The notes below the pieces were generated by a model, which saw only the letters and a list, made by a program, of their open reading frames with translations, was not told where the DNA came from and did not search any database. 64,000 bases of DNA from assembly GCA_030272155.1 (NCBI GenBank), contig CP126204.1, positions 248,001-312,000 on the forward strand. Reading direction: 5' to 3'. How positions within the stretch are numbered: position 1 is the stretch's first letter; each line of letters begins with the position of its first letter. Source of the DNA: Tetradesmus obliquus (Eukaryota; Chlorophyta; Chlorophyceae; Sphaeropleales; Scenedesmaceae). The position numbers and the translations under genes are program-made. Below, piece after piece: positions 5,879 through 63,035 of this stretch.

Positions 5879-6303
5879 ATGTCAACAGCAGCAGCAGAGG
5901 AGGTGTATGAACTGCCAGCTGCCGCAGTCAGGTACGTTCAACCGTGTTCAGATCAACGATGTACCAAAAACCCGCAGAGCTTCCAGGAACAGCCGCTGCT
6001 GGCCATAGCCACCACCATCACGTCTGCTGCACTGCTGCGCAGCAGTGCATGCATGCAATGCGCATGCAATGCGCATTGCATGCGCATTGCATGCGCATGC
6101 AATGCAGTGCATGCACTGCAGTGTCAGACCACACAACGCAGCATTTGTCCTCAACAGGATGCACCTCCTCACAGCTTGCTGGCAAGTAGGCAGCAGTATT
6201 CTCACACAATCACTACTTGCCAACATGCCCATCAACAACCACCGCCATGCAGCGCACTTGAACAGCACCATGCTGGACGCAAACACGCATGCGCTGCTGC
6301 TAC

Positions 6304-6345
<42 letters not shown>

Positions 6346-6650
6346 GCAATCCCACTTGCAGGACACTGGCACAGCCCGGGCTGCGCCTGGAGCTGCACTG
6401 CATCAGCATCAGCCACTACTGCATGCGGGCCAAGTGGGCGCTGCAGCTGGCTGGGCTGCCTTTTGATGCTGTGCACTACCTGCCACTGGCCCATGTGGCA
6501 GGCATTAAGCGGCTGCAGGTAAGCAGCAACAGCAAAAGAGCTTTAAATACTTGTAGTAGCCAGGGCACTGCTGCAGCTGGCTGGGCTGCCTTTTGCTGCT
6601 GTGCACTACCTGCCGCTGGCCCATGTGGCAGGCATCAAGCGGCTGCAGGT

Positions 6651-6694
<44 letters not shown>

Positions 6695-9627
6695 GCAGCA
6701 GCAGCAGTACTGAACAGCCAGAAACTGTTCCTGAGGCTTCAGCAGCACTGTGATCTGTGCTTTCAGTGGCACAGTGATTTACACAGCAGGCCTCAAGATT
6801 GACACCGGCTGCAATTACCTGCCCAGCAAAACAATGAAGCGCATAAAGCTGCACAATTTTATAAATGTAGTCACACTCAAGGCTGGGGTGTGACCTCCCT
6901 TACTGCATCGCTCTGCTGCCCTCACTGCTCTTCTCCTTGCTCCTTCCCTGCCGCCTGTGCAGCGCCGCTTCAACCAAGGCCCTGGCGCTGCCACAGCCTC
7001 CAGCAAGTCCCCAGCAGCAACGCCAGTGCTGGCAATCTACTCGGCACAAGGCGAGCCCCTCTGGTGCGCACTTGCAGGAACTTGCAGGAACTTGCATGAC
7101 CCTGGCTGCAGCCTAACTGCAGCAGCAGCCGCGCCAGAACTACCAGTGGCCCAAAGCTTGCTGTATGGCAGCGCTGTGCATTGCCCACATAGCACAGTCA
7201 GCAGGTGCAGCCGGATCATACAGTTGTGTGAGCAGTCTCCCGGCTCCTGCAGCACCCCTGCTGACCCTGCCTACCTGCTGCAACGCACCACCTTTCACCA
7301 CTCCTGCTTCGGCCTGGTAGCCAACTCAAAATCAGCAATGCTCCTGACCCGTACCAACACCCTGCTGCTCTGCACTATCCCTGGCCACCCTGCTGTAGCC
7401 TGGTGGCCAACTCAACGCTGATCAGCTGCTACGCTGCGCTGCGAGCTGCTGCACTGGGCCTGCCCGGCTACATACACATGCACTTTCCTCTGTCTCACGT
7501 AGCACGCTCAGCAAGTGCAGCAGCAACTTAAATCGTGTGAACCAGTGCAGGCGCCGCCTGCGCCTCCAGCATGCCTGCTAACCCTTGCTATCCCTGCTGC
7601 CCTGCTGCAGCCTGGTGGCCAACTCCACACTGATCAGCCGCTACGCTGCGCTGCGAGCTGCTGCCCTGGGCCTGCCTGGCCTAGGCCAGCAGCTGTATGG
7701 CCACAGCCTGGACCTGGCCCCACCAGCAGCAGGAGCAGCAGTCGATGAGGCAGCAGGCAGCAGCAGCAGCAGGGTGGTTGGGGCAGGGCCGGAGTATGAG
7801 GCAGTGTCTCAGCTGGAGCTGCGGCTGTCAGGCACGATGGGCATTGAGGTGAGACTGGGGGAGGGGGGGGGGGTGCTGGGCATAGGTGGCAGCCAAGCCG
7901 TAACAGGTGGCAGCCACGTTATGACTGTTCTGTGCGGCTGTCTGGCACAGTGGGTATTGAGGTGAGTGAGGGGCTGCTGAAAACATGCGGCAGTCAAGCC
8001 ATGACTCATTTTAAAAACACCAGTCGAGCCTTAGCAATGATGTCAAGCCATGACTGTGCTGTACACATGTGCGGCTTGAGGCCAGCTTGGCACATCGGGC
8101 GTTGAGATGAGGCAGCATGATGCTTGCCTCTTGAGGGACAAGTGTGGCCAACCAAAAATTTGTGTTGTTTTGGATTTAAGGAACAACACTGCAGCTTTTG
8201 CTGCAGCTTGGCTTGATGCCTGCCAGCGCTCTTCCAAAACCCCAGCAACTGTTCTGCAGGTGTGAGGTTTCACATAGCAGGAGCTGGGGAAGTCAACAAC
8301 ACCATGCCCTGCCGCCTGCCTGCTTTGCTGCTGCAGGTGCGCCGCGTGATGTACCACTACCTGCTGCCCCGCTGGCACCTTGCCGGCCACCTGTTCTCTG
8401 CCAATGCTGGCAGCACCCTTGGCTGGCTGCTGTCTCCCCTCGCCTACCTGCTCAGCCGGCTGCTGCTGCCAAAGGTCATGGCCATCAATGCGGCAACAGC
8501 AGCGCGCGGCATGCAGCGCCTGCAGGAAGAGTTTGACTTTTTTGACAGCCTGCTGCTGACTCAGCAGCAGCAGCAGCAGCAGGGCAAGAAGGCTGCTGTA
8601 GCAGCAGCAGCAGACGGCAGCAGCAGCAGTAAGCTGCCGTACTATCTGTGTGGGCCGCAGCTGACTGCTGCTGATGTGTCGCTGGCTGGCCTGGGTGGCT
8701 ATGTGGTGGGGGTGCCTGCTGGGCAGATGGGGCTGGCGTGGAGCCCCGGCATTGATGACATGCCAAAGGAGCTGCAGCATTTCATGCAGGTGATCAAGTT
8801 ATCCTTTTGTTTGGGGGTTTTGGGGGATGGCCGGGTTGCTGTAGTGCTGGTGGGCCTGTGCAGCAGGCATGTTGAGCTGCCATATGGCGAAGTGCTGGTT
8901 GCTAGGTGCATGCAGCGGCCCTTGGGGCCTATGTGGTGGGGGTGCCTGCTGGCCAGATGCGGCTGGTGTGGAGCCCGAGCATTAATGACATGCCAAAAGA
9001 GCTGCAGCACTTCATGCAGGTGAGAGGGATGTGGTTCGTTCAAATCTGTGGTTTGCTGTAGGCCTGATAGACACGTGCATCAATCTAGTCGAGCTGCAGC
9101 AGTGTGGTGCAGCAGTTGCCTGGGGCACACCAAATTGCAGTCGTGTCGCTTGCGGGCCTGGGTGGCTATGTGGTGGGGGTGCCTGCCAGCAAGATGCGGC
9201 TGGCGTGGAGCCCCGGCATTGGGGGCATGCCAAAAGGGCTGCAGCACTTCATGCAGGTGAGAACAGCTTTGTGTGCAACCACCTTGAATGATCAGTACAA
9301 AACTTCCTTTTGTGTACAAGCAGATGCCAAAGTGGCTGTGTGGGTGGCTATGTGCAAGGCTATGTGGTGCGTGTGCCTGCCAGCAAGATGGGGCTGGCGA
9401 TCTGGATCCCAGGCATAGGACAGATGCCAAAAGAGCTACAGCACTTCATGCAGGTGAGAGGAGCGCTGTGAGTCCTTAAGTCTTCCGTGCTCCCACCTGG
9501 CACCTATAGATGTGTGAAGGGGCCACTGCGAACTGCAAGCTGCGAGCGCACCACAGACACCAGCACATTGCTCCGTCGTGTTACTTGTGAGGTTTCTGCA
9601 GATGACGGTGGTGCACAATGTTGCCAA

Positions 9628-9704
<77 letters not shown>

Positions 9705-12994: not shown

Positions 12995-13591
12995 TTCTCA
13001 CTTTGTGCCTGATCAGCGTTTTTCTTTAGCAAGGAGTTTCCCACAAGTAGTGCGCAACATTGAAGTAGCGAGGTATTCAGCAGAAGCTTACATATATGGC
13101 AGCACATGACAGCAAAGCACGCTCATTTCGTGAGAAACCCTAGAAACATAAGTCCTCGTAGTTTTGCATCCAGACCGCAATAAAATAAGGCATTGGACTG
13201 TAAAATTAGGTTTAGTTCATCTTACAGCAGGCAGTGGGCACCAGGTGCCGTCTGCGCCTGCACCACAGCTGTGCATGCTGTTCAGCAGCAGGAAATCTCG
13301 AGAAACCATGAAAGCCACAGTGGGCACGCCATGCCGCTGAACCAACCGAAGATGGCGTATATACGTGAAGATTGCCTCGAAAAAATTTGTGCAGCGCTTT
13401 CAAGGTGCCCATGTCAGCTTGGCAGCAGTGCTGGCAGTGTTGCAACAAGAAGCAACCCTCCGGAGCCAGCAGCACACCGCTGCCTGCACAGCTGTGCACT
13501 GCTGCACCATCAGCAAGGGTTTGATCAGCTCACCAAACACACCTCTGGAGGCCAACAACCCTGCTGCGCACTCAAACCTCGACAGCCGTGC
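12995..13591. other. Intergenic, upstream of the WSC gene
   Basis: Contains the presumed promoter of the minus-strand WSC gene; CATATATG at about 13090 (reverse strand) could be a TATA-like element roughly 100 bp before its ATG, but this is weak. The far side is the 3' flank of GUF1, with a reverse-strand TGTAA at 13222-13226. No gene recognised. Confidence 0.5.
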
Positions 13592-13842
13592 TAGGGTTTA
13601 AGCAGCTTCGGGAAGACTTCTGCAAGCACGCTGAGCCCCCCCAGCTGCCTACAGGCCCACTGCACCCTCAGGGTTCATTAGCGCCAGGCCTGAACCCTGC
13701 TGGCTAAATCCTGCTGGCTAGGGTTCAAGCAGCTCCGGGAAGACTTCGCGGGCACGCTGAGCCCCCCAGCTGTCTACAGGCCCATTGCATCCTCAGGGTT
13801 CACCGGCGCCAGGCCTGAACCCTGCTGGCTAAACCCTGCCGG
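13592..13842 (-). repeat. Two extra tandem copies of the GUF1 3' end
   Basis: Segments at about 13592 and 13720 repeat, in direct orientation and at ~125-bp spacing, the last coding ~50 bp of GUF1 with the TAG stop and about 70 bp of 3' flank. They lie downstream of the true stop (13843-13845), so they are in the 3' UTR or beyond it. Confidence 0.88.
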
Positions 13843-14327
13843 CTAGGGTTTCAGCAGCTCCGGGAAGACCTCTGCGGGCACGCTGAGCCCCCCCAGCTGC
13901 CGCAGCCGCTTCTTGCCCTCCTTCTGCTTCTGCAGCAGCTTGCGCTTGCGGCTGACGTCGCCGCCGTAGCACTTGGCGGTCACGTCCTTGCGCAGCGCTT
14001 TCATCGTCTCACGCGCCACGATGCGGCCGCCGGCAGACGCCTGCGCAGCAGCGTGCAGCAGCAGCAGCAGCAGGAGACCCATGTGTAACATATTTTCAAA
14101 AGTGAAGTTCAGACGCCACATGTGCAGTGCCTTCATCATCCCACGCGCAATGGTTAGGCCGTCAGCTGACGCGTGCAGCAGCAGTGCCAGCAACAGCAGC
14201 AGCACTGCATGGGAAGCTTGTCTATCCTTTGGGTGAAATGTGAAGTTCAGCCGCTACATGTGCAGTGCCTTCATCGTCCGACGCGCAATGTGCGGCCGCC
14301 GGCAGCCCCTGCAGCATCAGCATCATC

Positions 14328-14361
<34 letters not shown>

Positions 14362-15657
14362 TGAGGCACATGCGTACATATTGCCAGGTGTGAAGTTCAG
14401 CCGCCACATGTGCAGCGCCTTCATCGTCTCTCGCTCCATTGGGGCGCGGGGCCGATGGCGTTGATGCTATGGCTTGATGGGTAACATGATGATGATGATC
14501 GTCTCTCGCGCCACCATGCAGCTCCTACACAAAGGCCAGTTGTTAGCAGACATGCAGGCTGCCCGCGCTCTGTTGCCTTCTTTGGTATACTTGGCATGTT
14601 TTGTGAGCACTCTATGGGCGAAGGGTGCAGACACACCCTGTCTGCCGCAACTCAAGCAGCACAGGCAGCTCGCAGGCGCACCTGAATGACCACCTCATAC
14701 TGCTGCCTGTACCATAATAATCAATGACTTATCAAGATCATGGCTCGCCAGTCACCTTGAACTGCTGCCTGCATGCCTTACCTGAATGACCACCTCATAC
14801 TGCTGCCTGTCCAGCAGCGTGCGCATGCGCGCGGTGAGTGCGCGCCCCAGCCGCACCGCGTCACCTGCAGCAGCAGCAGCAGCAGAAGCAGCAGGAAAAC
14901 AGCAGCAGTCAACAGCTCACTGCTGAGATCGACGCACAACTTCAACATAACATCAGGCATCAACATCAACATCAACATGCCAGTGTCAGTCACTGCTTGA
15001 ACGCAGCGTGTGCAGCAGCCCGCGCTACTCACCGCTGGGCACCAGCCGTCCTAATGCATGCATTTGTGTGCCGTTGACCAGCAGCTCCAGCAGCGTCCAT
15101 AACACAATCAATGTATGTACGGACGTCTGCAACTTCAGGCAGATCTATATTTGCAGTCACCGCTAGGCACCAGCAGCCCCAGCGCGTCCACGGGCTTGCC
15201 GTTGACTAGCAGCTCCAGCAGCGTCAGGCCTGTTGCAAACAAACATGTGAGTATATTGCATGCTAAGTACAAGTTGCTTCAGCACACTCACCGCTGGGCA
15301 CCAGCCGCCCTAATGCATCCACTGCCTTGCCATTGACAAGCAGCTCCAGCAGCAGCCAGGGCGGAATATAACAATAAACATGCATTTGTGTCGGTCGTTG
15401 GCTGAGCAAAATCGCCGCTGGGCACCAGCCGTCCCAGCGCGTCCACTGCTTTGCTGATGACTAGCAGCTCCAGCAGCGTCAGCTCCGCCAAACCCATCTA
15501 AACACATACATGTGACAGACCCCTGTAAACACGCACCGGTGGGCACCAGCCGCCCCAGTGCGTCTACTGCTTTGCCGTTGACCAGCAGCTCCAGCAGGGT
15601 CAGGTCAGCGGGCCGCAGCGGGCCCTCCTCGTAGTCAAAGCTGGCGTAGCTGTGGAT

Positions 15658-15695
<38 letters not shown>

Positions 15696-15790
15696 CCTCA
15701 GGTTACAACACGAAGATAGTTCTGTTACATGTAGCAGCACCAGGTGAGCGGGCGCAATGGGCCCTTGTCGGAGTCAGAGTTAGCGTAGCT

Positions 15791-15843
<53 letters not shown>

Positions 15844-16159
15844 CATCAGGTTGACAAAAACATCTGCTTTATAGCATGCAGCAGCGTCAGGTCGGCGGGG
15901 CGCAGCGGGCCCTCCTCATAGTCAAAGGATGCATGTTGACGCGGCTACATGCGACCCTGAGATCAGCAATAGACGGCTTGCTGATAGACAACGCAGCTGC
16001 CCTACCCAAGATGTGTTATTATAAATGTCACAATATTGTCATGTTATCATAAGGCTCACCCCTGAGTTGCCGACTTGAGCTTGCTGTAGAAGTCCCCTGC
16101 CAGCTCAGCCAGTGGCAGCTGGTAGCGCAGCAGCACGCGGTCACTGGCCAGGAAGCCAG

Positions 16160-16192
<33 letters not shown>

Positions 16193-16594
16193 CGCCAGTG
16201 TCAGCAGCTTCTGCTGCTGCTGATAGAACGTCCACACCGTCCTGAGTACTGCTGCTGCTGCTGCTGCCTGCGTGCTCGTCTGCTGCAGCAGCACTAGCAC
16301 TGCTGTTACCTGCACTATCTATACTGCTGCTGCTGCTGCTGCTGCTGCTGCCGCCCATGAAGCTGTAGTCCAGCTGGGTGCCGCGCCGTGCTACAGCCAG
16401 CTTCATGACGGCGCCGCAGTACTGCTGCGGTACAATGATGGTGGCCAGCACGGTGGGCTCGTAGATGGCTGACACCTGGCAGCAGCAGCAGCAGTAGCAG
16501 CGGCGGCAGCAGCGGCGGCGGCGGCGGCAGCAGCAGCAGCAGCAGCAGGTTACAGGGATGGTGGCCAGCACGGTGGGCTCGTAGATGGCCGACA

Positions 16595-16692
<98 letters not shown>

Positions 16693-16738
16693 GTTATGAT
16701 GATAGTGGCCAGCACGGTAAGCTTGCAGATGACCGACA

Positions 16739-16789
<51 letters not shown>

Positions 16790-17029
16790 TGACGATGATA
16801 GTGTGTGAGTTGACGCCGTCTACCCCTGCTGTAACCTGCTGTGTAACTTGCATGTCTGCGCCACATGTCCTACAAACAGCATGCCAGCAGTGTGGACAAG
16901 TGTGCAAGCTACAACCTGCGTTACCGTGCCAGCCTACAAGCAGGACCCACACAAGTATCCAGCGTGTCTCACCCTTTGATTGCGTGGGTACTCAGCAACA
17001 CTCTCCAGCACCAGCCGCTGCTTCTCTTT

Positions 17030-17066
<37 letters not shown>

Positions 17067-20000
17067 GGGTCGCCTGCCAGCTCCACCTCGTAGGGCACTG
17101 TGGGGGCGGTGCTGATGACGTCAGCGCTGTGCTCCTGCTGCAGGCGGGTCAGGAACACCTCCAGGTGCAGCGGGCCTAGAAAACCACACCTGAAAAGCAA
17201 CGCAAGAAGTAATACACCATGTAACATGAAACACATCAGGTGGAGACAATGACGTCAGCGCTGTGCTCCTGCTGCAGGCAGGTCAGGAACACCTCCAGGT
17301 GCAGCGGGCCCAGAAAGCCACACCTGCAGAATACCAAATGTCACATAACAAGTGAAACTGTGTTAGAAAATATCATGACTGATGACGTCAGCGGAGTGCT
17401 CCTGCTGCAGACGGGTCAAAATCACCTACAGGTGCAGCGGGCCCAGAAAACCACACCTGCAGAAACAACACAAAGCCATGTGTTACGAGCCTATCATAAC
17501 AAACATGATCACCCTGGCGCCATGCGCAGTCGGGGCCGGCAAGTCACACTGATTGCAAACTGCAAGTGTCACGCGCACTGAAGTTGCTCTTCATGCTGGC
17601 TGACTGTTTCAGCGCCTTACCTGAAGCCTGCTCCAAGGGCATCGCTGGTCTCCTTCTTGACAGTGACGGAGGCATCGTTCAGCCCCAGCCGCTCAATGGC
17701 CGCAGCCAGGCCCTCATAGTCATCGGCAGATGCAGGGTACAGCCCTGGGGGACGGGGTTTAGCGTGAACAGCAGCAGGCAACTGGCAGCAGCTGAGCATC
17801 AAGCAGCAGCTGAGGTGTCGACAATGCAGCATGCATGGGGTTAGGCAGATCATTGGTGAGGGCGTCCGAAAGGTCCTCAGCAAGCCTGAACTGCAGGCAT
17901 TGGCACACCCACAAAGGACCATGGGCTTGATGGGCTTGAAGCCCACCACACCCCACGCATGTAACATAAAAATGACAAGCTTGCAGCAGATATAATGCGT
18001 TTGATGGGCTTGAAGCCCGAACCCGACACATGTAACAAACTAACAACAGCCTAACAGCAAAAGTGACGCTCACCCGCACAGACCATGGGCTTGATGGGCT
18101 AGAAACCCCAACTCCACATATGTAAAGAATTAAATACAAGAATTAAATACAATTCAACAGCAAAATGAGCCTCACCCGCGAAGACCATGGGCTTGATGGG
18201 CTTGAGGCCCGCCAAAATCAAAACATGCAACAGCTGCTGCAAACGTAACATATGCTGTATGTAACAATAGCCTCACAGCAATAGTGACGCGCACCCGCAA
18301 ACACCATGGGCTTGATGGGCTTGAAGCCCGGCAGCGGCTCAACCGGCTGCCGTGCCAGGTGCCAGGTGTCACCCACACGCGCGGCCTTCACATCCTTGAT
18401 GCCGGGGATCACGTAGCCCACCTAAGCATGTAAAGCAGCAAAAGCGCAATACGAGGGCAAAGGTCAGCAACCGAAGCTTGTAGTTCTTGATGCGCAGGAT
18501 TACGTAGCCCACCTGCGGCAGTGCAGCATATAGGAAAATGGGACAGCAGCAAGTACTGCTACTGAAGCAGCTTGGTGTGCAGCCTTCACGTCCTTGATGC
18601 CCGGAATCACGTACCCAACGGGGAGGATGGCAGTGTAGCACAAGAAGATGAGCAATGTTCAGCAAGAAAAGGTGCCTGTGTGCGGCAGAAAAGCAAGCGG
18701 GAAACAAGGTTATTCTTCTGCAGGTACACACAGACAGCCCTGGTTGCTGTTGCACATTGAGCTTGTTGCGCAGCGCTGCCACTCGGTTTGTGCTGCGAGC
18801 CCCAGTCCCCACCTGCCCTGTCAGCAGCTCCCCAGCCGTGTATCAACTGTTTGGACCCAGTTCGCCTTATGCAGCTGCGCTCAGCTGTGCGCAGCCCCTA
18901 CGTACCTGCCCTGTCAGCAGCTCCCCTGTCGGGTGCGGCTCCGGAGCCAGGATGCCCACCTGGCAGCAGGCGGGCAGTGGAAGGGAGCGTGGCAGGCGGT
19001 GCAGGCAGCGGACAGTCAATTGTGTGCAAGGCGAGCACCATCAAACCTGCCTCAAGGCTTGAAGCTCAAGCTGGTTGCCTGCAGCCGTCCATGCACAACA
19101 GCCAACTGGCACAGCTGAGCACCACTTTGTTTGACTGCTTACATGCGACATGCAATCTCGCTGTCCACAAAAACAACACGACTCACCTCCGGGGACCCAT
19201 ATTCGCTGCCGCTGGATGCTGCTGCCACTGCCAGCGTGTCGCCATCAACCACCGCCACCAGGCACAACACGCACCGGTACTCGTCATCGTCGGAAGCAGC
19301 ATGCTCAGGAAGACACGCCTTACATCCAGAGCTCTATAGTCTGCACCACTACGGCACCACCAACTTGCTGATGCAAGCTTGCAGCCGCCACCAGTCACAC
19401 CTCAGCAGAGCCCATGCAACAGCAACACTCACCTCCAGGGCCTCATACTCGCTGCCGCTGGATGCTGCTGCTAATTTGTCGCCCGCCCGCAGCCGGCCAT
19501 CAACCACAGCCACCAGGCACACCACGCCGCGGTACTCGTCATGGAAGGCGTCAAACAGCAGCAAGCGCAGCGGCTGGGAAGGTTGGCCTGCAGGCGGCGG
19601 GATGCGCCTGCAGCGGCAGCAGCAGCAGCAGCAGATGACACATCAGAAAGATGACACCGCCGTTCAGGGAAAGGTGTCGAACAGCAGCAGGCGCAGCGGA
19701 TGCGCGGGGGAGCCTGCAGGGGGCGGGATGCGTCTGCAGCGGCAGCAGCAGATCAGTCATGCAGAATGGTCAGACATGCACGACTGTTCAACACAGGTGA
19801 CAATTGAGCTGCAAAGGGATGTGGCTGCCTTGAGAGGCATGGCATGCAAGCCTGCCTGCGGCGGCGCGCTGCGGCGCCAGGCAGGCAGGCATGCGATTAT
19901 ACACACCAGCAACCACAAGCAGAGTGAGACGCCCTTCTCTCCTTCTTGAACATAGTGGAAAGAGAGAATATATAAACGTATGTGTTATGCTGCCGCGCTG

Positions 20001-23000
20001 GTGCGCCTGCCACTCACTGCACCACAGCAGGCAGCAGCTCCCACAGGCCCAGCCCCGTATTGGCAGACACCGCCAGCACGCCATGTGCACGCCACACGCT
20101 ACGCTCACTACAGCTGTGACTATGTGCTTGTTTTAGAACAAAACCAACACACGGCAATCATGCTCACAATGAAACCTGTGAATGTGTAAATACAGCTTTC
20201 ACAATCATAGCATTGGGCATGATATTTCAAATGAATGCAGTTGCATGTGCCACTCACTCTACCACAGCAGGCAGCAGCTCCCGTAGCCCCAGCCCCGTCT
20301 TGGCAGACACAGCCAGCACGTCACTAGGCGCAACGTCAAAGGTGGCCGCCATCTGCGCTGCCCCTGCTGCAGGGTCTGCTTCGAAACATGCTGGGCAGAG
20401 CTGCAGCTGTGCCTAACAACAAGAGACCGCTAGTTGCATGTTTCGGCCAATGTAATTATAGTAGGTAGAGTCACTGATTCCGCGCTGCTATGTGTGCCTA
20501 ATGTGCACCTGCCACTCACTCTACCACAGCAGGCAGCAGCTCCCGCAGGCCCAGCCCAGTCTTGGCAGACACCGCCAGCACGTCACTTGGCACAACGTCA
20601 AACGTGGCCGCCATCTGCGCCGCCACTGCTGCAGGGTCTGCTGAGGGCAGGTCCACCTTGTTGAGCAGCGGCAGCAGCGCCAGCTCCTGCTCGAATGCGA
20701 GGTAGAAGTTGGCCACCGTCTGCACACAGATAAAGGCGGCAGCAGCAGTGGTATTGTCAGCATAGATGTTGGCGGCATTGCATGGCAGCAGCGCCAGCTC
20801 CTGCTCGAATGCGAGGTAGCCGTTGGCCACCGTCTGCACACAGATAAAGGCGGCAGCAGCAGCGGGATGGTGGTGTTGACGGCAATGCAAGGCCAGCAGC
20901 GGCAGCAGCAGCAGCAGCGCCAGCTTCTGTTGGAATGCAAGATAGAAGGTGGCCAGCTGCTGCAGAGGGATGGCAGCGGCAGCAATTCCCAGCAGTATTG
21001 TCATGTTAGCGGCATCAGATTGTAGCAGTGGCAGCAGCGCCAGCTGCTGCTGCAATGCGAGGCAAAAGTTGGCCACGGTCTGCAGGGTAGCAAAAGTTGC
21101 ATGGCAGCAGCACGCCAGAGTCAGAAAAGGCACTTGCAGGCCGGCAGAGACTGCAGCGCCAGCTCCAGCTCAAATGCTAGGTAGAAGTTGGCCACGTTCT
21201 GCAGAGGCATGGCAGCGGCAGCAGGTTTCAGCGGCGGTGTGGTGTTGGCGGCATCGCATGGCAGCAGCGCCAGATCCTGCTCAAATGTGAGGTAAAGTTT
21301 GGCCACGGTCTGCAAGCATGTGATTCCAGGGCCGTGACTTTGGAGAGAGGAGATAACATGTTGGTCCTGGCGCCAGCTTGAATGGCAGCGGCATTGCAAT
21401 ATGCGCACAGTTGTCTTGTGCACAAAGCATCTTCACGTGCTTCATTGGCAGCATAGTTTAGGAGCCATGCGCAGTTGGGCATTGTGAGCTGCTGCTAGTG
21501 CTGCTTGAAGTTTCCGATCATGCTGTCTTACGCATCGGTGCCATCTGCACTGCTGCTGAAGCCTGGCGTGTAAATCATTGAACACAGATTGCTGCTGTTG
21601 AGCTCAACACATCAACATGAATGCATGCACTGCAGCCTCACCTGTGCTTGCACGCCCTGGCTGGCGTCCACCAGCAGCAGCGCACCCTGGCAGGCCGCCA
21701 GGCTGCGCGACACCTGCAGCAGCAGCAGCAGCAGCAGCACGGACATCAAGACATATGGCAGTTTCAGGCTGAGCATGTGACTGAAGTTGATGATGTGACC
21801 AGGCACTGTCAAGCATGCTCATTACCACACTTCCCACTCAAACTCCCGCCGCTCTTCACACCAAACTTCACACCAATGTTCACACCAGACTTCACACCAG
21901 ACTTCACGCCCACCTCGTAGCTGAAGTCCACGTGGCCCGGCGTGTCAATCAGATTGAGCAGGTAATCGTGCCCATCGGCGTGGCGGTACACCAGCGAGGC
22001 TGTCTGGGCTTTTATGGTGATGCCGCGCTCACGCTCCACCTACGGCAGCGACGCAACACAAACAACTCAGGCACTGCTGTTGCACTACTGACGTTTTTGT
22101 TTGCTTGTTGAAGAAGCCTGGTGTGTATGCCAGACGCAGATTGGGCTGTGATGGTGAGGGTGGCATCACGCTCCACCTGCGGCACAGCGGCACGACACGA
22201 TACAAGAGGCATCAACACGATAGTAAAGGCGCGTACTGCTGGTGCATCATGGGGTGTATGGGCAGCACGCGCGTCTGCAGGCTGCTGCACAACTGCGGTG
22301 CAAGGCGCATGGCATGGATTTGCAGTGAAACGAGGCCTGATGACAAACACATGCTGTTACACAGATTGTCAGGCTGCTGCTGCTGTCAACATGCTGCTAC
22401 TGCTGCTGCTGCTGCTGCTGCCGCCCACCTGCGGCTTGTCTAGGTACTACGGTTGCCGCTACAGTAGCCTGCAGCTGCTGCTGGTGCAGTATTGCACAGC
22501 TGTTGCTGCTTCTGCTTCTGCTTCTGTTGCTGCTGCTGCTGCTGCTGTTGCCCCCCCCCCCCCCCCCCCCCACCTGCAGCTTGTCCAGGTACTGCGGCCG
22601 TGAGCCTGCCGGCACTGCCCCCGTGAGCTGCATCAGCCTGTCAGCCAGCGTGGACTTGCCGTGGTCAATGTGCGCAATGATGCAGAAGTTCCTGGTGGGA
22701 AGTACAGGCGGCCAGAAAGTTCACGGTCGAGTTCATTGTGCTGGTGATGGTGTGAATTTGCGTGGGTGAGCGGATGATACTGCTGGGTGAAAACTTGCAG
22801 GCAGTATTGCGCATCGCGTGGTGCCGCTGCTGCTGCTGCTGCTGCTGTTGCCAATGATGATGACAGAGCGCACTTCGCACCTGATGCGCTCTGGTGGGAA
22901 CATGTCCGGTTTGAACCCGCCACGCACAAACCCTAGCTCTGGGTCCAAACTGCTGCTGCTGCTACTGCTGCCCTTGCTGTTGCTACTACTGCTGCTACTG

Positions 23001-29408: not shown

Positions 29409-29482
<74 letters not shown>

Positions 29483-30917
29483 GCCGCCGGCAGCCGCGCC
29501 TGGACAAGTACACGGCTTCGCTGGCACAAGACACGCCCATCGTGTGCCTCTTCGTCAACGACGAATGCACCGAGCCGGTGAGCAACACCGCACCCGGCAG
29601 CAGCAGCAGCAGCAGCAGCCGACTTCAGCTTCATTGTTGGTGTTGCGCATGCTGTTCTGGAACCTGTGCCATAAGCTATTGCACCATCACTGTCGCACAG
29701 CTTTCGCCGCGTGTCAGTGTTATTGGCACACAGCAAAGTTGCTGGTGAACTCCGCGTGCTGCTTTACTGGCACGTACATCAAAAGCGCTAGGCCAAAGCA
29801 GTGGCATTCCCCACTTTCTGTCATCGGCAGCACTTGCTTACTGTCGTTTCGCTTGCTCTCCCTCCCTTTGCCTCCTTGCCTTCCTACAGATTGTGGCCAA
29901 GCTGGCCAAGGGGGGCGTCAAGCTAATCGCGATGCGCTGCGCCGGCTACGACCGCGTCGACCTGGCGGCCTGCGAGAAGTACGGCATCAAGGTGCGAAGT
30001 ACGGCATCAAGGAGTGAGTGAGTGACTACCCAGGCAGCTCTGCAGCTCCTGGGTAAGTTAAGGCTGGAGAAGGCGTGTGTGGCCAGGGGCGGCGCCCCTG
30101 GGCTCCACGCCCTCTACCTGTCCTCTTGCACCCTAGGGCACAAGCGGGGCGGTTGATTGGCGCGCTCATTTGAGGCGTGGCTTTTTGCAGTGGTCTGGCT
30201 TGCCTATGGCTTGCTTCGTTACTGTGCTGTGCTCAAGTTTACCTGAATGGCATCAAGGTGTGAGAAGTATGGCATCAAGGTGAGCAGCACGGCATCAAGG
30301 TGAGAGTACGGCATCAAGGTGATCACCCCTGGCACCACCTTGCTGCGTGTACATACCAGAAGCTTGCTGCGTGTGAGAAGTACGGCAGCCGAGGTGCTGT
30401 CCCACAAGGCCCATCTGACACAGCCGCACGTCACCCTTGAGGTCCTGGCGCTGCTGTTGCACATGTCGGCACACAGGAAACGTATCCGGGATGAGTCTTG
30501 GCTACAGTATGAGCAGAGTGCATCTGGATCTCCTCAACGAAGTGCTGCGCAATGTCACTCACTCACTCACTCACTCACTTACTCACTCACTCACTTACTC
30601 ACTCACTCACCTAACTTAAAGACTGAAAACACTTAAAGACTGAAAACAGTGGTGTGCTGCGCAATGTGGCTGCAGGTGGCGCGCGTGCCCACCTACTCGC
30701 CCACCAGCGTGGCGGAGCACGCGCTGGCGCTGCTCTTCGCGCTCAACAGGTGCGGGCGGGTTGGTGATGGTGCTGCATCATCAGTTTCTTTGTTGGCGGG
30801 CAACACCCGCTCTGAGTGCATGCAGATGAATCCAATCTCTCTTCCCAACAGCATACATGCGCGTGATGGCATGCAATCAACTGTGATTGCATGCATAGAC
30901 ACCCACTATATTATAAA

Positions 30918-30972
<55 letters not shown>

Positions 30973-32982
30973 CCACACAGGCGCATCAACATCGCGTACA
31001 CGCGCGTGATGGCGGGCAACTACAGCCTGGGCCCGCTGGTGGGCATGGAGCTGCGGGGCAAGAACGTGGCAGTCATTGGCACAGGGGCGATCGGCACAGA
31101 GGCAATCAGGCTGTTCAAGGTGGGCGGCGGTATCTGAAGAAACAACAAGCAGTTTGTGTGCCTGCCCAAACTAAGACTAAGCTGTTCATGGTGCCACAGA
31201 GGCAGCCAGGCTGTGTATGTCCTGCAAGAGTGTGCCGGTGGCTGTGTGATTGTGTGTGCCGCTTGCGGCGTGCTTGTGTATGCCTGTGGCTGCGTGATTG
31301 TGTGTGGCTGTGGCTTGCAGCCTGGGCCGGCTGGTAGGCATGGAGCTGCGGGGCAAGAACGTGGCAGTGATCGGCACAGAGGCAATCAGGCTGTTCAAGG
31401 TGGCATTGATTTCCTAGCCACTAGCAACAATTTTCATGATCTGCACCCTGTTCGCTGCTGTGCATGCCCGGCCTGCTGCCCTGCACCCTTCCGTGCATAT
31501 GACTGCTGCATCCTGTCTTCATCCAACCATTGCGCTGCACCCTGCACCCAGCACCAAGCACCCTGCTTCATTGCTCTTCAAACGCGCCCTGCAGGGCATT
31601 GGCATGAACGTGATGGCATATGATGTGGCAAAGAACCCCGTTGTTGGTCAGGTAGAGGGCGTGGAGCCCAGGGGCGCCGCCCCTGGCCACACACGCCTTC
31701 TCCAGCCTTAACTTACCCAGGAGCTGCAGAGCTGCCTGGGTAGTCACTCACTCACTCTCTCACCCTGTTGTTGGTTGACCCTACATGTCCATCCACGGCA
31801 TCAACTGGCCGTTTACCACTCTGACTACCATGCACTAACCTGATCTGCGCCCCCGTTGGCCAATCTGTATGTGCAGGGCATCGGCATGAACGTGATGGCG
31901 TATGATGTGGCCAAAAACCCGGCTGTTGAGGCCCTTGGCGTGCCTTACATGTCCATCGAGGACACGCTGCCACCTGCCCCTGCTGGCCCCCATGCGGCTC
32001 ACACTCAAAAAATTTGTTGATTCTGCCGGGCATGCCCTGCCTGCTGCACACCACCCTGCACCGATCCCCTCTGCACGACTGGTGCACTTTTCAAACCTTC
32101 ACCTGCAGGGTATCGGCATGAACGTGATGGCGTACGATGTGGCCAAGAACCCCGCTGTCGAGGCGCTGGGCGTGCCCTACATGTCCATCCATGACATGCT
32201 GCCCATCTACTGCTATGGCTTTTATATGGCTCACACCCTGCCAAACCTAAGGAACACACTGTGCGGTCTGCTGCTTGCCACTGTGCACTGAGGTCTGATC
32301 TGCACACCTGGGGCTTTCTCTCTGTATGTGCAGGGCACCGGCATGAACGTGCTGGCGTACGACGTTGCAGAGAAGCCGGCTGTCGAGGCGCTGGGCGTCC
32401 CTTACATGTCTATTGCGGACTTGCTGCCAGTGGCTGCCCGCACACAGTGACCAACAGAACAGCTCACACACGTCACACCCGCTGACTTCTGTGGCGCTTG
32501 CCTGCCTTCCCCAAACTTCACCCGCAGGGCATTGGCATGAACGTGATGGCGTACGATGTGGCCAAGAACCCCGCTGTTGAGGCGCTTGGTGTCCCCTACA
32601 TGTCCATTGAAGACATGCTGCCAATAGCCGACGTGGTCAGCCTGCACGTGCCGCTGCTGCCCAGCACCTACCACATCATGAACAAGCCGCGGTGAGCTTG
32701 CATTCTGATTGTGGTAGCGGTGTGACACTTTTGTGCTGACCGGATGTTCTCATGGCTGGCGTGGTCAGCCTGCACGTGCCGCTGCTGCCCAGCACCTACC
32801 ACATCATGAACAAGCCTCGGTGAGCTTGCATTCTGTTTGGTGGCAGCGGTGTGACACTTTTGTGCTGACCGGATGTTCTCATGGCTGTTGTGGTCAGCCT
32901 GCACGTGCAACTGCTGCTGCTGCTGCTGCTGCTCAACACGTACAGCCTTGTGATGATGAAGAAGGGCGCGCTGCTGCTCCAC

Positions 32983-33016
<34 letters not shown>

Positions 33017-33071
33017 ACATCTGCAGTTTTGCGGTGATGAAGCAGGGTGCGCTGCTGCTCAAGAAGCTGCC

Positions 33072-33115
<44 letters not shown>

Positions 33116-33727
33116 AGCTGCTGCGCTTCACATTCACAGCTGTGCCATGCTATAGAAGGGTGTGCTGCTGCTCAACGTGCTGCTGCTGCTGCTGCTGCTG
33201 CTGCTCACTTGAATTGATCACAAAACGCAGCTTTGCGATGATGAAGAAGGGCGCGCTGCTGCTCAACGTGAGCCGTGGCGGGCTGGTGGACAGCGACGAG
33301 ATGATGCACGCGCTGGAGGCGGCGCAGCTGGGAGGCGTGGGGCTGGACGTGTGGGAGAACGAGGCAGACATGTTCTTCACGGACTGGTGCGGGTTAGGGT
33401 TCAAGGGTTTAGGGTTTGGTGGTTGGGGTTGTGGTTTAGGCTGTTCAGAGGCATGTAGCTGGGAGGCGTGGGCCTGTATGTGTGGGAGAATGAGGCAGAC
33501 ATGTGCTTCACCAGCTGGTGCGTGGTTGCGGGCTGGGGCCTAGTCATAAATGGGCCTTGGTGTGTTTGCTTGGCAGGGCTTGTAGCAGCTGCTGATCAAC
33601 GGCAGCTGAGCAGCAGCTGGCAATGTGCCGCACAAGTGTGACAGGGATACCATGAAGAGGATGCAGGCATACAGCAGACATGTTTGTGTCACATGCGCTG
33701 CGCATCACCCGAACGTCCCTGCTTGGC

Positions 33728-33778
<51 letters not shown>

Positions 33779-34427
33779 AGGACTGACATGGACCTTGAGA
33801 CGCGCATGAAGGCCTGGGACAGGAAGTTCTACGCGCTCACCAGCTTCCCACAGGTGCGCAACGCAGGACAAAACTGTCGCACGCCGTGCAACCTTTGCAC
33901 TCCCATGCAAACGGCCTTCCTGCATTGTCACATGTTACATCACCGCCTTGTAACACGCTGCCCCGCAGGTGATTGTCACACCGCCCTCGGCCTTCCTCAC
34001 GCACGAGGCGCTGGCCAACATCGCCGCGTTGTGACCCAACCCAGTGTTGCGTATTGTAACATGTCATAACATCACAATCTAACATGTCTCGCTGCAGGTC
34101 ATTGTCACACCCCACTCGGCCTTCCTCACGCACGAGGCGCTGGCCAACATCGCGTCCACCACTGTTGAGAACATGTCGCAACAATGCCTTGTAACAATCC
34201 GCCCTGCAGGTCAGCCTTCCTGCATTGTAACATGTTATGACTCCGCATTGTAACACGCCACACTGCAGGTCATCGTGACGCCTCACTCTGCCTTCCTCAC
34301 GCACGAGGCGCTGGCCAACATCGCGTCCACCACTGTTGAGAACATGGAGGCCTTCCTGCTCAACAAGCCGCTCAAGAACGAGATCAAGGCCAAGCCGCGC
34401 ACCAGCCCCATCAAGCCATCCACATGA
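28596..34427 (+). CDS. D-lactate dehydrogenase (NAD-dependent, 419 aa, 10 exons)
   Basis: Exons 28596-28838, 29099-29164, 29494-29577, 29890-29991, 30676-30749, 30981-31119, 32528-32691, 33231-33386, 33781-33853, 34269-34427; exactly 420 codons with stop. Family: D-isomer-specific 2-hydroxyacid dehydrogenases, reducing pyruvate to D-lactate with NADH. Seen: MRCAGYDRVDL, the Rossmann loop VAVIGTGAIG (~residue 213), catalytic Arg306 in NVSRGG, the acidic residue in DVWENEADMFF (Asp330/Glu335), and catalytic His373 in VTPHSAF. The substrate-loop order fits fermentative D-LDHs. The first ~60 residues (Ala/Ser/Arg-rich, MLAGTPCSTAARARSS) look like an organellar transit peptide, so plastid or mitochondrial fermentation in the dark is the likely role. 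No alternative family fits as well. Confidence 0.93.
29409..29481 (+). repeat. (CTG)n run leading into the D-LDH exon 3 acceptor
   Basis: About 24 CTG/GCT triplets end in CCGCCGCCGGCAG, directly followed by exon 3 at 29494. One of the clearest CTG-run acceptors in the window. Confidence 0.92.
30012..30120. mobile_element. 109-bp SINE/MITE-like element, copy 1 (in D-LDH intron 4)
   Basis: Starts with GAGT repeats and ends CCTCTACCTG. It contains two hairpins: TACCCAGG...CCTGGGTA and CCAGGGGC-GGC-GCCCCTGG. A near-identical copy lies at 31649-31757 in the opposite orientation. No target duplication is obvious for this copy. Confidence 0.8.
30236..30330 (+). repeat. Copies of D-LDH exon 4 end plus donor
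   Basis: The unit TACGGCATCAAGGTG, the exon-4 end with its donor, recurs at least four times (29995, 30255, 30290, 30308). Donor-side duplicates. Confidence 0.8.
30556..30612. repeat. (TCAC)n microsatellite in a D-LDH intron
   Basis: Repeated CTCA/TCAC units with a few CTTA interruptions, in the intron 29992-30675. Confidence 0.9.
31300..31400 (+). repeat. Copy of D-LDH exon 6 end plus donor
   Basis: Repeats SLG.LVGMELRGKNVAVIGTEAIRLFK with GTGGC following. A 12-bp internal loss deletes part of the Rossmann glycine loop, so this copy could not replace exon 6 functionally. Confidence 0.85.
31594..32450 (+). repeat. Four copies of the start of D-LDH exon 7
   Basis: Acceptor-side copies of GIGMNVMAYDVAKNP.VEALGVPYMSI start at about 31594, 31877, 32109 and 32334, each after a TGCAG acceptor; the used copy starts at 32528. 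The first copy is split by the SINE-like element. Identity is high, so the duplications are recent. Confidence 0.93.
31649..31757. mobile_element. 109-bp SINE/MITE-like element, copy 2, inverted, with target duplication
   Basis: Reverse complement of 30012-30120. It splits a copy of D-LDH exon 7. The flanks CCCCGTTGTTGGT (31636-31648) and CCCTGTTGTTGGT (31763-31775) look like a 12-13-bp target-site duplication with one mismatch. That length suits LINE-driven retroposition of a short structured RNA. No ORF. Confidence 0.8.
32755..33085 (+). repeat. Copies of D-LDH exon 7 end and exon 8 start with CTG runs
   Basis: VVSLHVPLLPSTYHIMNKPR plus GTGAGC is repeated at 32760-32826, and a fragment at 32885. 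MMKKGALLL and VMKQGALLL, copies of the exon-8 start, follow near 32952 and 33034, separated by CTG runs. Confidence 0.88.
33390..33520 (+). repeat. Telomere-like TTTAGGG motifs and copy of D-LDH exon 8 end
   Basis: The intron begins with several GGGTTTAGGG/GGGTTAGGG words (33391-33425), then a decayed copy of LGGVGLDVWENEADM with a TGGTGCG donor. Too short and irregular to be a telomere. Confidence 0.7.
33960..34215 (+). repeat. Copies of the start of D-LDH exon 10
   Basis: GCAGGT-led copies of VIVTP.SAFLTHEALANIA occur at about 33969 and 34099, with a fragment at 34209; the used exon starts at 34269. The first copy reads TPPS, replacing the catalytic His with Pro. Confidence 0.9.
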
Positions 34428-35877: not shown

Positions 35878-35999
35878 AACAATAACCAATTTGTAAATAT
35901 CATGGCATCTCTTGTTGCGTATTTATATGCATATACATTTGTATACACAAGCTGTTGTCATCCATGACAGGGGCAGCCTGCCTGTGACAAGTCCAGACT

Positions 36000-36005
36000 G
36001 CCAGA

Positions 36006-36050
<45 letters not shown>

Positions 36051-38538: not shown

Positions 38539-38573
<35 letters not shown>

Positions 38574-41200: not shown

Positions 41201-41350
41201 CTTGTTGCCCAGACGTCTTTCATGCACTCGTGCCATGGTGATGTGCGAACGATCATTGAACCCCTGTGCCAGAACCCTGCTGCCTTGGACACACATGGCA
41301 TGTAGCATTCATGCAGCTGGTGCCTGCTGGCTTGATTGCAACGCGTCTGA

Positions 41351-42406
41351 ACAGCTGAACACGACGTTGTTACACGCAAAAACGATACTTTTAACGGGAT
41401 CGTTAAATGGCTGCATTTGCAGTCGCCAAGGGTGCGGGTAGTGCCGAGTACAAGTCAGGCTGACCGCCACACTCCGCGCTGGGTCTTCACGCAAAATGAT
41501 TCGTATATCGCAGGGCTTTACGTTGGTTCTCAGGCATCTCTCGATCAAGTGCAGGAGCTCGGCATTACACATGTGCTGGTGAGCAGCAAGAGCAGAAGCA
41601 GCAGCAGAAGCAACGGCAGCAGCAGCAGCAGTAGCAGCAGAAGGAGACACTCTCCAGAAGGAAAAAGCATCTGTATGCTGATGTTATCACACCAACAACG
41701 GCAGCCTGCCGTTCTGTCTCAGTAGCACAGGCCCTCTGGGTGTACTGCCAACCTGTTGAACATTGTTCAAGTGTCACACAAGGGCGCGCAGTTGCAGCTG
41801 CCACTTAATGCAGCGCTGCACTCCAAGCCTGCTGTAGTGTTATGTTTCACCTGCTGCAATAGTAGGTATCCATGGGCACTGCCATTTCACCTGATAAGCA
41901 GTTGCGTTCCCGCTGCAGAGCAAGGTGGACTGCATGGCAGCTGTACTGCTGGAGCGTCTGCAATTTTGTCTGTCTGCTGTGCACACCATGTGTTGGCGGC
42001 TGGTGTAATTGAAAGCTCAAGTACATCTGATATTGCTGCTGCTGCTGCAGAGTGTGGTCAACTATGAGGTGTCCCCCCCTGAGGGCGTCTGCCACTGGGC
42101 GGTGCAGCTGGAGGATGCTGAGTCAGCAAACCTGCTGGCAGCGCTGCCGGGTGAGAACAACATGCATTAGCAACAGCAGCAGCAGCACTAGCACCACCAC
42201 CAGCACCAGTAGCAGGAGCAGCAGCAAGGACAGCAGCAGCACCAGTGATGGCGCATGGTTGCAGTCGCAGCCAACCCTGGCCATGCCACGTTCTGTGCGA
42301 GCGACGCATATGAGCAGCAACAGAGCACCCTGCTGTGGTCGATCCCACCCTCGCACTAGCGCTGACTGCAATTGGCAGGTGCTCATCTCCAGCGAATGTC
42401 ACTGCT

Positions 42407-42441
<35 letters not shown>

Positions 42442-47980: not shown

Positions 47981-48016
<36 letters not shown>

Positions 48017-48191
48017 GGTTTTCCCCTGTGCAGTGGTCCTGCTTCCACTCTGTTTTTGGGGGCCGCTGGCGGTGAAGGATGCGGTGCACGGCCTGGTGGC
48101 TGCCAAGGCTGCAGGTTATGCTCAACTTGTATCTTGCACCCAGCACCGTGCAACATACGCACACTGAACAGCATGAAGCATATGTAACTGT

Positions 48192-57279: not shown

Positions 57280-57355
<76 letters not shown>

Positions 57356-62052: not shown

Positions 62053-62083
<31 letters not shown>

Positions 62084-62323: not shown

Positions 62324-62486
62324 GGCGTGTGTGTGGCTCCCGGCAATAGTAGTTCACCGTGTTGTAGAACGCCCTGCACTGTCTAGTTGGCAATGGGGGC
62401 ACCTGGCACCTGAGTATTGTTGCATGTTGATGTCCTTGTTTGCAGCAGAGGCGCCCAAGAGCTGCGGGTGCCATTGTGCTTGTGCG
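62324..62486. other. Cyclase 3' UTR
   Basis: From the TGA stop to TGTAA at 62487. Contains the start of a terminal-exon copy (GCAGAGGCGCCCAAGAGCTGCGGG resembles exon sequence at 62212). Confidence 0.5.
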
Positions 62487-62491
62487 TGTAA
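62487..62491 (+). terminator. TGTAA polyadenylation-like signal for the cyclase gene
   Basis: TGTAA 164 nt after the stop, the first such motif on the coding strand. Confidence 0.45.
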
Positions 62492-62514
62492 TGAATGCAA
62501 CCGGCCACTTTCCT

Positions 62515-63035
62515 TTATGTGGCAGTGAGGCAGGGCGTGGCTGGTCGGGCAGCGGTGTGCTGCCGGCGGCTGTGTCTGGCTACAAGCTGTTCACGCAATG
62601 AGGTTGGTGGCTGCAGGGGATGAGCCGCTATGCTCTGTTGTACAGCTTGCATGGTTGTGTGGATGTGTGGAGTGTTTGAATCAATGCAGTGCTGCTGTGT
62701 TGAGCAACGGTTGCGCTGACAGCTGCTGGGTATTGCACTGTTTCTACTTGGTGTACTTGTCGCCTGGGCAGCATTTTACTAGTATGTCAATCCTTAAAGG
62801 CGGCTGCCGTGCACTGCTGTGCGCACCACAGTCTGCAGTATGTCGGCGGGCAAGTGCCGGCACTGCCGGGGGCTGCGTCAGGTTGCAAGCTGTTCAAGCC
62901 ACGATATGCATGTCTACATAAAAACTGTGCAGGCAAACACCATGAACTCGCGCAAGTGCTTTAGTTGAACCTTGTGAATGCAGCATGCTGCAGGCTCAGC
63001 ACCGCCGGCGGCTGCAACTGCAAACTGCTCCTTTT
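62515..63035 (+). repeat. Decaying copies of the cyclase terminal coding segment
   Basis: 62521-62603 repeats VRQGVAG.A.V...AVSGYKLFTQ with the TGA stop, one base short. 62835-62905 and 62990-63030 are more diverged remnants. Same pattern as behind the GUF1 and glycan-enzyme-like stops. Confidence 0.85.

Follow-up and report, generated by a model that had tools for sequence, protein, structure and literature searches.

Copies of exon edges in introns of Tetradesmus obliquus and their possible origin in short tandem duplications

Exon edges are copied into neighbouring introns

Introns of Tetradesmus obliquus carry short direct copies of the edges of the exons beside them, a genuine pattern that is seen on several chromosomes. 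The focus on edges was far above uniform placement in the genes tested and recurred in sampled blocks on nine contigs. We analysed a window of 64,000 nucleotides together with about 300 kb of further DNA, a sample rather than the entire genome. Self-comparison of the window (simple repeats masked, E ≤ 1e-4) returned 138 direct matches closer than 4 kb and 1 farther, with 4 inverted matches within 2 kb; the control, a window shuffled by 6-mers within 600-bp bins, gave 0 matches. Nearby direct copies of this kind are what tandem duplication in general leaves, and the near-to-far ratio within the window is unlike that of introner-like elements, which form dispersed families.

Exon edges were placed in a curated set of 60 exons, from a GUF1/LepA gene and a D-lactate dehydrogenase (D-LDH) gene in the window, one CarB gene and six MutS-type loci. 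The models were rebuilt by spliced protein alignment, and a home-made ab initio gene finder, which returned a single giant gene over the greater part of the window, was dropped. Uncertain exons were excluded by hand before exon matches were counted, msF was aligned but left uncurated, and the intron counts cover introns of up to 2000 bp that contain no uncurated exon. A piece of LepA searched against plasmids gave no match. The two window genes are as follows.

13852..22693, minus strand: GUF1/LepA-like gene, 16 predicted exons (spliced alignment of E. coli LepA, score 1367, residues 5-592)
29494..34385, plus strand: D-LDH gene, eight confident exons (spliced alignment of Synechococcus LdhA, score 672)

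The exon-linked local repeat matches in the curated genes numbered 70, of which 69 reached an exon edge and 1 ended 9 bp inside, which bears out the boundary-spanning duplications at splice junctions described in an earlier, sequence-only reading of this DNA. No match in these genes covered a whole exon or joined one exon to another; 25 more had neither copy on a curated exon, being copy-to-copy or near uncurated exons. Edge families occurred in 28 of the 49 confident introns (19 donor, 16 acceptor, 7 both), so more than half of the introns examined do carry edge copies, in line with that reading, with a maximum of 5 intron copies per edge rather than its 9. Uniform placement predicts 49.5% intron-only families, and we found 0 beside 35 edge families (p = 6e-11). 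Two of 38 edge families had copies below the length that the copy finder handles and were left out of the measurement of periods between copies. Once copies were removed, introns with families had a median length of 310 versus 255 for those without (p = 0.20).

The listed GUF1 and D-LDH matches with an exonic copy all extended to an exon edge or the end of the gene, save one that ended 9 bp short, and their partners lay in the adjacent intron or the 3' flank. The copies in GUF1 are:

13585..13899, minus strand: exon 16 end and stop codon, copied into the 3' flank with a period of ~127; part of the exon end itself is included in these coordinates
14121..14434, minus strand: exon 16 start (acceptor edge), copies in intron 15, CTG-rich
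14680..14710, minus strand: exon 15 end (donor edge), one copy, 31/31 identical, unrelated flanks
15027..15488, minus strand: exon 14 end, four copies in intron 14, period 121-131
15733..15927, minus strand: exon 14 start, two copies in intron 13
16551..16742, minus strand: exon 11 start, two copies, CTG/CAG tracts between
17249..17473, minus strand: exon 9 start, two copies in intron 8
17903..18232, minus strand: exon 7 end, three copies in intron 7
18579..18619, minus strand: exon 7 start, one copy in intron 6
19172..19287, minus strand: exon 5 end, one copy in intron 5
19671..19741, minus strand: exon 5 start, one copy in intron 4
20001..20380, minus strand: exon 4 end, two copies in intron 4
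20784..21314, minus strand: exon 4 start, five copies in intron 3, period 111-126

Those in D-LDH are:

30259..30319, plus strand: exon 3 end, copies in intron 3
31318..31403, plus strand: exon 5 end, one copy in intron 5
31595..32429, plus strand: exon 6 start, four copies, each behind its own CAG
32752..32908, plus strand: exon 6 end and intron head, one copy, period 128, 94% identical
32943..33177, plus strand: exon 7 start, copies in intron 6
33457..33527, plus strand: exon 7 end, one copy in intron 7
33914..34175, plus strand: exon 9 start, two copies in intron 8

The GUF1 end gives a stop-codon version of the pattern, also reported in the earlier reading, in which the end of exon 16 is copied with its stop codon into the 3' flank and the last of the copies stops shortly beyond that codon. 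GUF1 and D-LDH are two of the six genes that the earlier reading named; around the other four, the GST, glycan-enzyme, fusion and cyclase genes, self-comparison found dense repeats, which are candidate edge copies. It found no match between 34704 and 42785, where the membrane and 38602 genes lie, in agreement with the claim that these two are free of copies.

Ten 20-kb blocks at preset coordinates, on nine contigs, served as a wider sample. Such repeats were present in all 10, with a common period, and 36 of 70 repeat loci were edge-type versus 18.4% of random spans, so edges exceed random positions, as the sequence-only reading implied; 24 of the 70 were classed as non-coding. The portions of the literature that we searched describe no genome-wide pattern of exon-edge copies in introns.

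Homology between copies fades where constrained sequence ends

The period between adjacent copies was 100-148 bp in 47 of 66 pairs in the gene models and below 100 bp in only 1, and the block period was 100-159 bp in 65 of 107. Shifts of 100-148 bp were found at 25/36 edge loci versus 9/24 loci classed as non-coding in the blocks; this sharper period of ~125 bp at edges counts against a purely general process. Full-length tandem arrays had periods like the partial ones, with three extra 144-bp units in carB exon 5 and a 128-bp unit in D-LDH exon 6.

Spacer similarity was scored against a null of unrelated introns. Across the 66 adjacent pairs, z was at least 6 in 13, intermediate in 18 and below 2 in 35, and the 53 pairs with z < 6, which are not independent, jointly retained residual similarity (Fisher p = 5e-9). 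Spacers exceeded the null's 95th percentile in 19 of 31 pairs with exon-part identity ≥0.90 and in 8 of 35 below 0.90. They were at the unrelated-intron level (z < 2) in 10 of the 31 pairs with exon parts at least 0.90 alike, for example at the ends of D-LDH exon 5 (97.6%) and GUF1 exon 15 (29 bp, 100%), and several of 12 hand-picked block pairs were 95-100% alike with flanks unrelated by eye. Clearly homologous spacers (z ≥ 6) were found in 10 intron-edge families, yet intron-only families numbered 0. In D-LDH intron 5, the three full-length copies of the exon 6 start have exon parts that align gap-free and are 81-88% alike, while their spacers hardly align (54-55%, with many gaps).

Homology fades where constrained sequence ends, be it a splice consensus or a stop codon. 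Junctions matched poorly in 2 of 18 donor families and in 2 of 17 acceptor families, which were left out; in the remaining donor families, terminal copies kept GT in 16/16 and +5G in 14/16, but +4 in only 8/16, and beyond +6 positions differed in 50-75%. Donor positions +1 to +5 were likewise mostly retained in the blocks and were near chance from +6, in an analysis that left out the 39 of 64 loci that fitted neither type. The decoy splice sites that the earlier reading expected are therefore genuine, in gene models and blocks. In one block pair (B05:18925), 98% identical, homology ends exactly at the stop codon. Acceptor extension lengths are lower bounds because simple-repeat masking shortens acceptor-side alignments; the msD exon 2 match ran about 48 bp further once unmasked.

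Copies diverge from their exons

In their exon parts, copies differ by 0-30%. Among 65 exon-copy matches, 24 of 26 gaps were not a multiple of three and there were 4 stops; a larger count of 38 frameshift gaps and a separate frameshift split, which also include gaps at truncated copy ends, were left out of account. These gaps rule against the copies being functional coding exons, although the D-LDH intron-5 copies look constrained.

Comparison of exons with 66 copies gave 212.5 synonymous and 174.5 non-synonymous differences, with synonymous divergence of about 0.22. The non-synonymous fraction was 0.451 versus 0.547 for a neutral copy (p = 1.5e-4, for copies that share ancestry and with base-composition bias unmodelled), and the effect was strongest in D-LDH, where, relative to the exon, copies 2 and 3 of exon 6 carry 8 and 10 synonymous changes and 2 and 1 non-synonymous ones. 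The fraction was 0.366 in 15 copies with homologous flanks and 0.454 in 39 with unrelated flanks. A weak, low-power test found no recombination signal in 3 of 7 multi-copy families, those with enough sites (p = 0.195, 1.0 and 0.141). One copy of carB exon 5 looks mosaic by eye.

Origin of the copies

The reading that we favour, with about an even chance of being right, is short tandem duplication followed by selection, in which the exon-matching half survives, possibly re-templated by the exon, and the boundary focus is mostly survivorship. Direct duplications, their unit being some 125 bp long, would arise often in the genome, from an initial break or slippage. Selection would remove those inside coding sequence, and those straddling one exon edge or a stop codon would survive because the splice site beside the exon body, if it is the one used, still yields correct mRNA. 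The product at donors would be exon end, spacer, exon-end copy and intron, with the mirror image at acceptors, and the intron would lengthen. The non-coding half of the unit would then drift, and the exon-matching half would stay recognisable for longer because the exon is constrained; gene conversion may also let the exon go on re-templating those copies.

Loss of homology at the end of constraint suits duplication with survivorship of the exon-matching half, and the arrest at a stop codon fits too, since DNA repair cannot see that boundary. Similar duplications in loci classed as non-coding and the introns that are not longer once copies are removed also speak for the favoured reading, as do the decay of the copies and their recurrent period, and the full-length arrays and residual spacer homology speak for plain tandem duplication. 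Against it stand the unrelatable spacers beside exon parts at least 0.90 alike, for which plain decay is too slow, the lack of intron-only families despite the 10 edge families with z ≥ 6, the sharper period at edge loci, and differences that are synonymous-rich, even with homologous flanks, where a neutral copy predicts fewer. The negative recombination test, being weak, weighs only lightly against homogenisation. Exon parts 94-100% alike beside unrelatable spacers would need either gene conversion from the exon or a junction-anchored event.

Copying anchored at transcript boundaries, through splicing intermediates, through R-loops or through breaks that accompany co-transcriptional splicing, is an unlikely candidate; an exon-edge piece would be inserted beside unrelated intron sequence that already bears a splice-like site. 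It would account for the 35 edge families against none within introns, the junction end of the exon kept in all but the one match 9 bp short, donor copies with GT and +5G amid variation at +4 and beyond +6, high-identity exon parts with unrelated flanks, and the sharper period at edges. Stop codons, however, are boundaries as well (B05:18925, GUF1) and lie beyond the reach of splicing, and the full-length arrays and residual spacer homology point to plain tandem duplication. The inner ends of copies, moreover, showed no enrichment of AG or GT (7/35 versus 16.9% background; 7/31 versus 18.7%), on which grounds we also rejected AG/GT-bounded exon-like units made by recursive splicing or splicing intermediates. 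Nor was there a CTG link of the kind once proposed: families were present in 12 of 23 introns that contain a (CTG)≥5 tract and in 16 of 26 that lack one (p = 0.57), copies were no closer to CTG than random (p = 0.46), and CTG repeats were rejected as a cause. The interpretation put forward in the sequence-only reading, a mutational process at transcript boundaries, is only partly supported: the edge focus goes beyond uniform placement, and mutation aimed at those boundaries is a candidate.

Random short tandem duplication with purifying selection and recognition bias, the spacers being lost to drift and indels with no homogenisation, is rather improbable. In its favour, it shares the tandem-duplication evidence with the favoured reading, and with synonymous divergence at about 0.22, the spacers, unconstrained in either copy, would be expected to diverge to a similar extent; against it stand the unrelatable spacers beside 94-100% exon parts and the gap-free exon parts and gapped spacers of D-LDH intron 5. 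We consider it more improbable again that exon and copy stem from separate haplotypes within a hyperdiverse species, by duplication between diverged alleles, which predicts mainly synonymous exon differences and unalignable introns. The mostly synonymous changes in D-LDH exon 6 copies 2 and 3 would agree, as would the consensus splice sites that the copies themselves carry amid unrelated sequence, but differences should then be neutral where flanks are homologous, and we rejected this origin because the fraction of 0.366 found there failed the prediction.

In the Rogers model, introns are gained by tandem duplication; the copies would mark both ends of a new intron, and the exon-end copy would sit directly before the next exon. 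This is very improbable here, given that more intron sequence follows the exon-end copy in the cases inspected, at carB exons 4, 18 and 20, that copies have frameshifting gaps and that protein alignments use the exon-attached copy; in its favour, the units contain splice sites, and excerpts of PMC4974935 report a one-boundary duplication making a new intron. An assembly artefact, by haplotype or read duplication, has a negligible probability, as exon parts that differ from the exon, with frameshifting gaps, are no assembly echo, and the repeats in ten blocks on nine contigs share a period.

Discussion

In the excerpts of PMC4974935, a tandem duplication across an intron-exon boundary of the potato RdRp gene made a new spliced intron. 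The copies described here resemble that case in being local direct duplications that span one exon-intron boundary and duplicate a splice site; unlike that single gene with its new intron, they decay inside existing introns, in 28 of 49, and are found at donor and acceptor sites as well as at stop codons. Gao and Lynch (2009), as cited in the same excerpts, described segmental duplications containing entire introns, which are also within-gene duplications involving introns, but the units here are ~125 bp with one exon edge. Small tandem duplications made in CST-guided Pol alpha-primase break repair, according to excerpts of PMC8355091, are the commonest short (<100 bp) insertions in humans. 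Ours are likewise short, direct and tandem, whereas only 1 of 66 periods is below 100 bp and those excerpts describe no exon-edge link.

The edge copies may be what an ordinary process of short duplication has left behind, and not the product of one aimed at gene boundaries. More tentatively, and with odds well short of even, edge copying could be tied to the coding boundary as such, by way of transcription, splicing or continual exon re-templating, supplying spare splice sites genome-wide and driving intron growth. In genomes like this one, spurious exons or alternative splice sites may turn up in gene predictions. If general, the pattern would offer a natural system for studying intron lengthening, the means by which splicing passes over near-perfect decoys about a hundred bases away, and whether exons can keep their non-coding neighbours alike by gene conversion.

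Local repeats and gene models

Self-comparison of the masked window returned 138 direct matches less than 4 kb apart and one farther apart, together with four inverted matches at most 2 kb apart; a shuffled window (6-mers permuted within 600-bp bins) returned none. Repeats occupied 25.6% of bases in the window vs 0.4–32% in another ten 20-kb blocks, whose coordinates were fixed in advance and which lie on nine contigs (200 kb in all). The genome comprises 104.66 Mb in 17 contigs, and the intron-rich genes and CTG-rich sequence suggest a green alga. Between dense stretches, about 8 kb (34705–42784) had no local repeat matches at E ≤ 1e-4 with simple repeats masked, and contained a long, apparently intron-poor gene. 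A large nested array at 53488–54786, with periods near 110, 148 and 258 bp, included two 598-bp stretches that were 97% alike, and a 120-bp array at 51494–52168 carried GTGGCGTGCT-like decamer repeats with several frames open. Short stretches with 77–80% similarity to the window's cyclase exon array, on the window's own contig (G000:C14:319628) and two others (C3:6531863 and C2:5706179), are probably paralogous cyclase exons. Pfam matches in the window were:

36226–36870, DUF2177 membrane protein (2e-6)
42833–43231, dual-specificity phosphatase (2.8e-11)
47585–48184, haloacid dehalogenase-like hydrolase (9.8e-14)

Exons were modelled by spliced protein alignment with splice-site scoring. Two of the six window genes named in the sequence-only reading (GST, GUF1, glycan enzyme, D-LDH, fusion and cyclase) were modelled, a GUF1-like gene (16 predicted exons, aligned to E. 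coli LepA) and D-LDH (located with Synechococcus LdhA). Genome searches added a CarB gene (10.5 kb, 21 exons; E. coli CarB query) and partial loci from a MutS query. The curated set judged reliable comprised 60 exons, 53 donors and 55 acceptors.

Duplicated copies are focused on exon edges

Among 70 exon-linked matches, 69 reached the edge of a curated exon, the remaining one ended 9 bp inside, and none joined exon to exon; in 25 additional matches both copies lay off curated exons. An edge family here means the local direct copies in an intron that include the splice-site end of the adjoining exon. Such families were found at the donor edge of 19 of the 49 confident introns, at the acceptor edge of 16 and at both edges of 7, with 21 having neither. 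Intron-only families were absent from these introns, whereas uniform placement of 105–145-bp units in collapsed introns predicted a 49.5% share (p = 6e-11, which presumes equal detectability and is generous, since both copies of an intron-only pair drift). Using just the ten intron-edge families with clearly homologous spacers (z ≥ 6; the spacer is the non-exonic part of the unit), the probability was ~0.001 (0.505^10); this subset excludes the stop-codon family and was not paired individually with the 49 introns.

In the blocks, a codon-usage classifier (AUC 0.942, 60-bp windows, leave-one-gene-out; weakly biased exons may escape it) assigned 36 of 70 repeat loci to the edge type, 24 to non-coding sequence, nine to coding copies with non-coding flanks and one to both flanks coding, vs 18.4%, 69.1%, 10.7% and 1.8% of random spans. 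The focus on exon boundaries over random positions, proposed from the sequence alone, thus holds in both data sets. So does its extension to stop codons: GUF1 3' copies stop just beyond the stop codon, and a 50-bp pair in one block (B05), 98% identical, stops exactly at an apparent one.

Donor families usually run from exon end through spacer and exon-end copy into further intron, with acceptors as the mirror image. Homology often stops a few bases beyond the splice junction, although masking trims this extension where acceptors are rich in CTG. Terminal donor copies (16 of 18 families) kept GT in 16/16, +5G in 14/16 and +4 in 8/16, and differed at 50–75% of positions from +7 onward; acceptor copies (15 of 17 families) kept AG in 12/15. 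The 25 assignable loci of 64 in the blocks gave GT 11/15, +5G 12/15, +4 10/15 and +6 4/15 for donor types, and AG 7/10 for acceptor types.

The period between adjacent copies was 100–148 bp in 47 of 66 cases in the gene models (81 bp in one, 165–282 bp in 18) and 100–159 bp in 65 of 107 in the blocks. Block shifts of 100–148 bp occurred at 25/36 edge loci vs 9/24 loci classed non-coding, and this sharper size rule at edges is evidence against a wholly general duplication process. The exonic share of the unit ranged from 18 to 123 bp, so unit size is independent of junction position. The lower limit near 100 bp could stem from interference between splice sites lying too close. A 64-bp minisatellite in another block (B07, 17326–17967; 99.7% identical, classed non-coding) is unlike the ~125-bp family.

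Origin and decay of the copies

A proposed link to CTG repeats found no support, as tracts showed no association with families, either by presence (p = 0.57) or by distance (p = 0.46). Long pure CTG/CAG tracts lie at 9629–9704, 16599–16687, 29410–29481 and 57281–57354; such tracts sometimes sit directly 5' of acceptors, where they seem to stand in for the pyrimidine tract. AG and GT were not enriched at inner ends of copies (7/35 and 7/31 vs background 16.9% and 18.7%). With the copies subtracted, introns with families were not longer than those without (median 310 vs 255, p = 0.20), so the added length can be put down to the copies.

Across 66 copies, differences from the exon numbered 212.5 (synonymous) and 174.5 (non-synonymous), a non-synonymous fraction of 0.451 vs the 0.547 expected if a copy drifts neutrally while its exon is constrained (p = 1.5e-4, treating non-independent copies as independent, with base-composition bias outside the model). 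Gaps shifted the frame in 24/26 cases, and four stops occurred in 65 exon–copy matches. The copies are mostly decaying, with the synonymous excess strongest in D-LDH. In the four D-LDH intron copies (31595–32429), changes relative to the exon are mainly synonymous; each copy retains its own acceptor, and the four look more constrained than most others. Derivation of exon and copy from diverged haplotypes is argued against, as the non-synonymous fraction in 15 copies with homologous flanks (0.366) was no closer to neutral than in 39 copies whose flanks are unrelated (0.454). A recombination test of low power was negative in all three testable families of seven multi-copy families.

Spacers were compared with the sequence beyond the copy, using other introns as the null. 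Similarity exceeded the null 95th percentile in 19 of the 31 pairs whose exon parts were at least 0.90 alike and in 8 of the 35 less similar pairs, and the 53 pairs with z < 6 were jointly significant (Fisher 5e-9, pairs not independent). This residual similarity indicates that the copies likely originated by whole-unit tandem duplication. Spacers were unrelated in 10 of the 31 young-looking pairs, and in D-LDH intron 5 three full-length copies have gapless exon parts 81–88% alike beside spacers 54–55% alike; the half derived from the exon is somehow kept intact or renewed.

Boundary-linked copying is a possible alternative to the reading we favour, which combines short tandem duplication, purifying selection in coding sequence and an exon-matching half that is recognisable for longer. 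The favoured reading leaves unexplained the zero intron-only families, the sharper period at edges and the young exon parts beside unrelated spacers. Searches of open-access literature, judged on titles and abstract openings, turned up no description of such edge copies as a genome-wide feature. The closest published case found is a potato RdRp gene in which one duplication across one boundary created a new intron (PMC4974935); small tandem duplications are described as arising from break repair (PMC8355091). Under duplication plus selection, short tandem duplications would arise, purifying selection would clear them from coding sequence, and the exon-matching half would remain recognisable longer, with gene conversion from the exon perhaps contributing; this accounts both for the boundary at stop codons and for the lack of copies inside exons.
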